Shown here piece by piece: positions 52,637 through 59,142 of a DNA stretch of 64,000 nt. The stretch is from NCBI GenBank assembly GCA_938044775.1, contig CALIOE010000037.1:1-64000 (forward strand), in the 5' to 3' direction. Position numbers and translations under genes: made by a program. Source of the DNA: an uncultured Rhizobiaceae group bacterium. GTDB lineage: Bacteria; Pseudomonadota; Alphaproteobacteria; Rhizobiales; Rhizobiaceae. Every line of letters begins with the position of its first letter. Within the stretch, counting starts at the first letter, position 1. The notes beneath the pieces are model-generated. The model was not told the origin of the DNA, searched no databases, and worked only from the letters and a program-made list of their open reading frames with translations.

Positions 52637-53191
52637 CTACGATTGCAACGGGATGCACCTGATTTCTGGACCGATGATTTTGCTTATCGCTCCACCAGTG
52701 TTTATGGCCTGATAGATCGACCTTGGTGGGCGTGCTGCATCGTCGACGCCGCGATGAACCCAGTTTCGTTCTTCTAAGGATTTCAGAGTTTGCGACAATG
52801 CGCGGTCGGTGATTGTCTGCAAGGAGCGTTTGATCTCGCTGAAATGGCTTGGTTTATGAAGCGATGTCAGAATGGGCAATGTCCATGAGCGGCGGAGCAA
52901 GTCCTGATCTTTTTCGCTGGAAATTTTGTGAACTCTGTTTGCAATTGCGGCGGCCGTAACACCAGTCTGTGTCAGTCGAAATTCAGGGCGAAGCGGATGA
53001 CCGTGACCAGGATTTCGTTCCAGCAGACCGATCCTTACAAGGTGCTCCATGCTCTGGGCGAACGCATTCCTGCCAGCGCCCGTTGCGGCCAACAATGTTG
53101 CCTGCCTTCCGGGGATGCCGTCGTGCAGGTTTGAGAGGATTGGTAGGGCCCAGGCTCTTGAAGTGATGTTGACAAGCGAATTTATGTACAT
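52637..53191 (-). CDS. HxlR-like winged-helix regulator with apparent tandem duplicated domains
   Basis: SRAWALPILSNLHDG...LVRIGLLERNPGHGHPLRPEFRLTQTG and RRSWTLPILTSLHKP...LEERNWVHRGVDDAARPPRSIYQAINTG. Confidence 0.8.
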   Translation of the reverse strand: MYINSLVNITSRAWALPILSNLHDGIPGRQATLLAATGAGRNAFAQSMEHLVRIGLLERNPGHGHPLRPEFRLTQTGVTAAAIANRVHKISSEKDQDLLRRSWTLPILTSLHKPSHFSEIKRSLQTITDRALSQTLKSLEERNWVHRGVDDAARPPRSIYQAINTGGAISKIIGPEIRCIPLQS

Positions 53192-53194
53192 AAA
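53181..53194. promoter_or_regulatory. Perfect 14-bp palindrome TTTATGTACATAAA overlapping regulator start codon
   Basis: Direct reading. Confidence 0.6.
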
Positions 53195-53195
53195 G

Positions 53196-53208
53196 TATAG
53201 TTACTATA
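53196..53208. promoter_or_regulatory. Palindrome TATAGT-T-ACTATA upstream of VOC gene
   Basis: Direct reading; adjacent to the previous palindrome. Confidence 0.55.
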
Positions 53209-53230
53209 TTTTAGTTCGTGAGGAAAGACC

Positions 53231-53718: not shown

Positions 53719-53746
53719 CCGCCATTTGGGCAAAACCAAATGGCGG
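53719..53746. terminator. Perfect 11-bp stem inverted repeat between convergent genes, possible bidirectional terminator
   Basis: CCGCCATTTGG-GCAAAA-CCAAATGGCGG; no clear T-run. Confidence 0.5.
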
Positions 53747-53833
53747 CATTCCGTCCAAAACGGCCAGTCGGTTCGAACGCAGGAAACCCAAGATACAGAT
53801 TCCCTTTTAATCACTTTTCGGCCGCACTGGCAG

Positions 53834-58461: not shown

Positions 58462-58698
58462 GATGAGCAGCTTCACAGTCGTAATGCTGGACAATCGGTC
58501 TGACATCAATGGCTGGCGTCGGCTGCAAACAGGCAAATTACCGATGCCAGCCGATCTTGGCCATGCAAAGTCGTACCGGATAGCGGCTCAGACTTCCGGC
58601 TTTGGATCATCTGCAGAGCTTGCGACTTGAAGTCATGGCGCGCCCTGCCAAAAGCCTGCTATGAACAGGCCAGAGACAACCCCGATAATGGATTTTCC

Positions 58699-59142
58699 AT
58701 GAAATACCTTCACACCATGGTCCGCGTGCGTGACGTGGAAGCCTCGCTGGAGTTTTACTGCAAGCATCTGGGCCTGGAAGAGATTCGCCGTATCGATAAT
58801 GAGGGTGGCCGCTTCACCCTGATCTTTCTTGCCGCACCGGAAGACAAGGAAACTTCGGCGACCAGCCGTTCACCAGAGCTCGAGTTGACCTACAATTGGG
58901 ACGGCGATGAGAACTACGAAACAGGTCGCTCCTGGGGCCACCTTGCCTATGTTGTTGACGACATTTATGCGACCTGCCAACGGCTGATGGATGCCGGAAT
59001 TACGATCAATCGACCGCCTCGTGAAGGCCGCATGGCTTTTGTGAAGTCGCCCGACGATATTTCGATAGAGCTCCTTCAAAAGGGCGATGCACTTCCTTTG
59101 CAAGAACCTTGGAAGTCGATGGAAAACACCGGCAGCTGGTAG
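58699..59142 (+). CDS. gloA: Lactoylglutathione lyase-like VOC protein
   Basis: MKYLHTMVRVRDVEASLEFYCKHLGLEEIRR, LELTYNWDGDENYETGRSWGHLAYVVDDI. Confidence 0.92.
   Translation: MKYLHTMVRVRDVEASLEFYCKHLGLEEIRRIDNEGGRFTLIFLAAPEDKETSATSRSPELELTYNWDGDENYETGRSWGHLAYVVDDIYATCQRLMDAGITINRPPREGRMAFVKSPDDISIELLQKGDALPLQEPWKSMENTGSW

Follow-up and report, generated by a model that had tools for sequence, protein, structure and literature searches.

A tandem-domain HxlR-type regulator and a divergent VOC-fold gene form a predicted two-gene module around one putative operator

The regulator, its two halves and the VOC gene

The locus lies in the window, a stretch of 64,000 nucleotides, and comprises a regulator gene on the minus strand and a divergently oriented gene on the plus strand that encodes a protein of the VOC/glyoxalase fold (Table 1). 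The original prediction covered 52637-53230, an end coordinate that also takes in the intergenic bases as far as the start of the VOC gene, and described the regulator as a protein with two HxlR-like winged-helix segments. We scanned each half alone against the PF01638 profile, for which the curated cut-off is 20.8 bits. Both halves score above it, so each has an HxlR match of its own and neither is left without a winged-helix hit, in agreement with that description. The halves also align to each other in a profile-profile comparison (72 columns, 26% identity, E = 1.1e-5), and the C-terminal half matches the QsrR and YodB structures by sequence (profile E = 7e-7 for QsrR). AlphaFold models built from 3 input sequences reached a pLDDT of 42.5 for the regulator and 48.9 for the VOC protein, and are too poor for use.

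Table 1. Positions of the genes, protein halves and predicted regulatory elements in the window.
Feature	Position	Strand	Basis or remark
Tandem-domain HxlR-type regulator, 184 aa	52637..53191	-	ORF and ~45 full-length orthologs
N-terminal HxlR-type winged-helix half	52919..53191	-	PF01638 21.5 bits; invariant GHGHPLRPE wing motif
C-terminal HxlR-type winged-helix half	52640..52918	-	PF01638 41.6 bits; TDRALS recognition helix
Divergent VOC/glyoxalase-fold gene, 130 aa	53231..53623	+	PF00903 38.6 bits
First palindrome, TTTATGTACATAAA	53181..53194		mostly conserved start region ATG-GAC-AT
Putative 21-bp operator, AAAGTATAGTTACTATATTTT	53192..53212		core TATAGT-T-ACTATA, 53196-53208 (second palindrome)
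TTGACA, probable -35 of VOC promoter	53169..53174	+	in regulator codons 6-8; promoter scan 10/12
TAAAGT, probable -10 of VOC promoter	53191..53196	+	16-nt spacer; overlaps operator edge
TAAAAT, weak -10-like site for regulator	53208..53213	-	9/12; overlaps other operator edge
Ribosome-binding site of VOC, GAGGAAAG	53220..53227	+	sequence

Orthologs were sought among 101 relatives and in genomes from the order (398), the class (385) and the phylum (399). This search returned ~45 full-length regulator orthologs with 48-74% identity, all from Alphaproteobacteria, together with three more distant homologs (L074, L080 and L081) at ~33-36% identity; no viral or phage relatives were found. The single-domain architecture of the HxlR/DUF24 family is seen in none of the orthologs, all of which carry two domains per chain, indicating that the regulator is a two-domain variant and a non-standard member of that family. 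In a tree of the halves, the N-halves form a single clade (support 99) that includes the distant proteins and a Pseudomonas aeruginosa protein described below. The core C-halves likewise form a single clade (support 99), and the distant C-halves fall without resolution beside single-domain HxlR proteins. Since the N-halves and the core C-halves each form a clade, the two-domain form is old and probably arose once.

The match of the VOC protein to PF00903 lies above the cut-off of that profile (20.6 bits). The metal ligands of FosA are numbered H7, H64 and E110. In a weak alignment to FosA, residues T11, V69 and M116 of the VOC protein fall at these ligand positions, as they do in its orthologs, and by this comparison the canonical His/Glu metal ligands are absent. 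Because the protein lacks these ligands, we consider a role in binding or sequestering a molecule likelier than catalysis of the glyoxalase, FosA or dioxygenase type. The VOC gene is preceded by a ribosome-binding site, and none is seen in the sequence upstream of the regulator start. Two further observations concern the surroundings of the gene. Downstream of it lies a perfect 11-bp inverted repeat, CCGCCATTTGG-gcaaaa-CCAAATGGCGG (~53724-53751), with no T run after it, and a second VOC-like ORF of 171 aa, which by eye resembles lactoylglutathione lyase, occurs at 58627-59142 in an unrelated context.

A palindromic putative operator overlapping two predicted promoters

Two adjacent palindromes had been pointed out in the promoter shared by the two genes. 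Both TTTATGTACATAAA and TATAGTTACTATA are present and perfect; when the bases of the 70-bp gap were shuffled, an even palindrome of 14 bp arose in 0.7% of cases, an odd one of 13 bp in 2.6% and both together in 0.025%. Alignment of 43 orthologs at the start codon bears out part of the expectation that these palindromes are conserved: of the two, only the second is. The first is perfect in 1 of the 43, the window itself, with arm mismatches ranging from 0 to 5. It reflects the conserved start ATGGACAT, and its proposed role as an operator is not supported. The conserved block occupies positions -21 to -1 on the regulator strand (AAARTATAGTNACTATAYTTT) and constitutes a 21-bp palindrome centered on the second palindrome, with the consensus AAARTATAGT-N-ACTATAYTTT. 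Across the 43 orthologs, the arms of the 13-bp core differ by 0.95 mismatches on average, versus 3.7-5.4 at six shifted positions. Among the distant homologs, L080 (~36% protein identity) retains TATAGTTACTATA, and L074 and L081 retain only parts of the palindrome. Of the two palindromes, it is the second that is the probable operator.

In the window's genome, the operator core occurs once at no more than 1 mismatch, at this locus, and a reversed control pattern occurs 12 times, a difference that may reflect simple oligonucleotide bias. The core was also rarer than its reversed control in all six genomes compared (G000 and five others; for example, 1 versus 12 and 1 versus 40). Of the two half-sites, the near one is the tighter, with 11 deviations versus 31 in the far one. 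This mild asymmetry may reflect the overlap with the promoter instead of unlike halves of the regulator.

The putative operator overlaps the predicted -10 element on both strands. The TTGACA/TAAAGT pair assigned to the VOC gene, with a perfect TTGACA and an imperfect -10, outscores every other promoter-like site in the region, and its -35 element lies inside the coding sequence of the regulator. All 43 orthologs have TTGTCAA at positions +17 to +23 of the regulator gene, synonymous sites included (NTT-GTC-AAN, codons 6-8); these sequences share ancestry, and a naive product of probabilities is not usable as a p-value. The residue at codon 6 varies among L, F, I and V, yet the codon always ends in TT, and codon 7 is always GTC, whose share of the valine codons in the rest of these genes is 27%. 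At every other degenerate codon between 2 and 90, conservation of the third position is 81% at most. In one ortholog (L053), the regulator frame starts 32 nt downstream and the DNA block with TTGTCAA has not moved. In this ortholog, the constraint on the DNA is separable from that on the protein. Another ortholog (L125) has a 9-nt insertion, equal to three codons or about one helical turn, between the start codon and TTGTCAA, and the -35/-10 spacing is therefore not universal. The pattern indicates that regulator codons 6-8 are frozen at the DNA level and hide the probable -35 box of the VOC promoter, a feature that goes beyond the original prediction.

Distribution and probable mobility of the gene pair

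The expectation that the VOC neighbor would be conserved is borne out: a divergent VOC ortholog is present at every tandem ortholog whose upstream DNA was read. The VOC orthologs of the core set are 65-84% identical, and the start-to-start distance between the two genes is usually 38-41 bp and at most 72. Distance matrices of the regulator and the VOC protein correlate with r = 0.70, a value reached by none of 2000 permutations, of which none exceeded 0.22. The VOC gene was found in 12 of 151 genomes, and the regulator is present in 11 of those 12. In the exception (G005), the VOC ortholog (L130, G005:C4:23344-23694) has lost both regulator and operator, and it is the only orphan seen. That the two genes are rarely separated is explained in part by the -35 box in the regulator codons, which ties them together physically. 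When ORFs from 26 neighborhoods were clustered, only the regulator and the VOC gene (with its antisense shadow) were common to them, and the next best gene occurred in 5. Since nothing else is shared by these neighborhoods, the regulator and VOC genes constitute an inherited two-gene module placed in many contexts. Its occurrence is patchy: within the order, 23 of the 398 genomes carry it, and within the class, 14 of 385.

A distant pair, whose regulator is 30% and whose VOC protein is 42% identical to those of the window, resides in a class 1 integron on a P. aeruginosa plasmid (L131, NZ_CP131793.1, 217230-225730). Its neighbors are qnrVC1 on one side and, on the other, an IS110 element followed by qacEdelta1-sul1, with intI1 adjacent. 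The 8.5 kb of this context contain exactly two GTTAGGC core sites, one at either end of the pair; since 40 of 200 shuffles yielded two or more such sites by chance, it is their position, and not their number, that counts. The attC site of this copy seems to be interrupted by IS110, and the GTTAGGC ends and the context fit a gene cassette. The window locus itself showed neither flanking repeats nor cassette-like ends or an integron context. The gene order around the kynureninase gene is not kept in the genus, and an empty-site comparison was without result. The module is probably horizontally mobile, and at the window locus it is the distribution of the pair that suggests as much. The integron context of the distant relative, along with membership in the VOC family, points to detoxification as a possible function of the VOC protein.

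On Phaeobacter inhibens plasmids (L133, NZ_CP081226.1), the regulator gene is frameshifted at a run of G, the VOC gene and the operator are intact, and genes for two site-specific integrases and a TniQ protein flank the pair.

Proposed mode of action and comparison with known systems

Autoregulation combined with control of the VOC gene, as originally suggested, is very likely given the HxlR halves, the conserved VOC partner and the conserved palindrome in the shared promoter. We propose that the regulator binds the single 21-bp palindrome over the -10 and start regions of both divergent promoters and that, when bound, it would repress its own gene and the VOC gene. A small-molecule ligand, sensed without a conserved cysteine, would release the regulator, and the metal-free VOC protein would then bind, sequester or convert that molecule. 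A local repressor with autoregulation is suggested because a genome-unique palindrome covers both -10 regions and a near-obligate target is adjacent; we regard repression of both genes as highly probable.

In DNA-bound HxlR, the recognition helices are 34.8 Å, or about 10 bp, apart (PMC7835342). The half-sites of the putative operator are likewise ~10 bp apart, so that one pair of winged helices would fill it. The two winged helices of one chain could provide this pair, which would make the regulator a natural single-chain HxlR dimer. Such a dimer is physically possible, since an engineered HxlR-cpYFP-HxlR chain, in which helix 5 is joined to helix 1', is functional (PMC7835342). A literature search on tandem or "two HxlR" proteins, in which subscription papers fell mostly outside the search, found only this engineered sensor. 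We put the chance that the operator-filling pair consists of the two halves of one chain at about even, and this is the arrangement that we favor by a narrow margin. The complete account, a mobile, self-contained two-gene module with a local repressor, ligand release, VOC action and single-chain binding, seems to us reasonably probable. A bolder version, in which the single-chain HxlR pseudo-dimer and the metal-free VOC protein constitute a minimal mobile and inducible resistance module against an unrecognised toxic small molecule, with a relative in a clinical integron, is doubtful.

The most serious competing explanation is that the tandem protein is an ordinary homodimer in which one half per chain, probably the N-half, reads the palindrome and the other serves to dimerize or to sense the ligand; the proposed repression and control of the VOC gene would be unchanged. 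The near symmetry of the operator, set against an identity of only 26% between the halves, suits a homodimer equally well or better. Likewise, the N-half is far more conserved than the C-half (mean column identity 75% versus 56%), and the ~25 residues that separate G77 of the N-half from W103 of the C-half are few for a full helix 5 plus a full helix 1. However, the C-half has the better HxlR score, D129, R130, A131, L132 and S133 of its recognition helix are invariant in the ortholog alignment and its wing is conserved, so it still resembles a DNA-binding domain; moreover, one operator offers only one pair of half-sites. We consider a homodimer quite plausible while leaning away from it and toward single-chain binding.

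It is unlikely that the regulator activates the VOC gene instead of repressing it. The family founder, HxlR of Bacillus subtilis, is a single-domain dimeric activator that turns on hxlAB in response to formaldehyde, sensed via Cys11-Lys13 (PMC7835342), and the VOC promoter has a short spacer and an imperfect -10. However, the putative operator is located at the predicted -10 and further downstream, a position from which a bound protein obstructs polymerase, the perfect -35 needs no activator, and the Cys11-Lys13 pair is absent. A thiol-based quinone or electrophile sensor of the YodB/QsrR/CatR type, controlling a VOC dioxygenase such as CatE, is very improbable: the C-half is closest in sequence to QsrR and YodB, and ring-cleavage dioxygenases belong to the QsrR and CatR regulons (PMC6798810), but an alignment of 48 tandem proteins contains no conserved cysteine column, the N-terminal sensing position of such switches included, and the VOC protein lacks the metal ligands that a ring-cleavage dioxygenase requires.

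The analysis replaces an isolated guess with a defined module of two genes and one operator found in dozens of genomes, and the regulator offers a clean case for asking how a dimeric repressor family turns monomeric. As the integron copy demonstrates, resistance genes can be traveling companions of the pair, which makes its substrate worth finding.

Among known systems, QsrR, YodB and CatR are sequence relatives of the C-half that repress detoxification genes, with regulons that include ring-cleavage dioxygenases, themselves proteins of the VOC fold. The QsrR operator is GTATA-N5-TATAC, a pattern that the palindromic putative operator at the target promoter described here would fit as GTATA-GTNAC-TATAC. 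Those regulators, however, are single-domain homodimers with an N-terminal sensing cysteine, whereas the present regulator has two domains and no conserved cysteine, and its VOC partner is without a canonical metal site. VOC proteins of the FosA/bleomycin-resistance type share the fold and the PF00903 family, with weak similarity to FosA; fosfomycin-type chemistry is not expected given the residues aligned with its ligands. HxlR of B. subtilis (7bzd) belongs to the same winged-helix family but differs in its single domain, its activating role and its formaldehyde-sensing residues. An architectural parallel is the engineered sensor FAsor, which likewise places two HxlR units in one chain. FAsor is artificial and carries the same HxlR copy twice, separated by a fluorescent protein, whereas the regulator described here has diverged halves and almost no linker, and it may be a naturally occurring equivalent of such engineered single-chain sensors.
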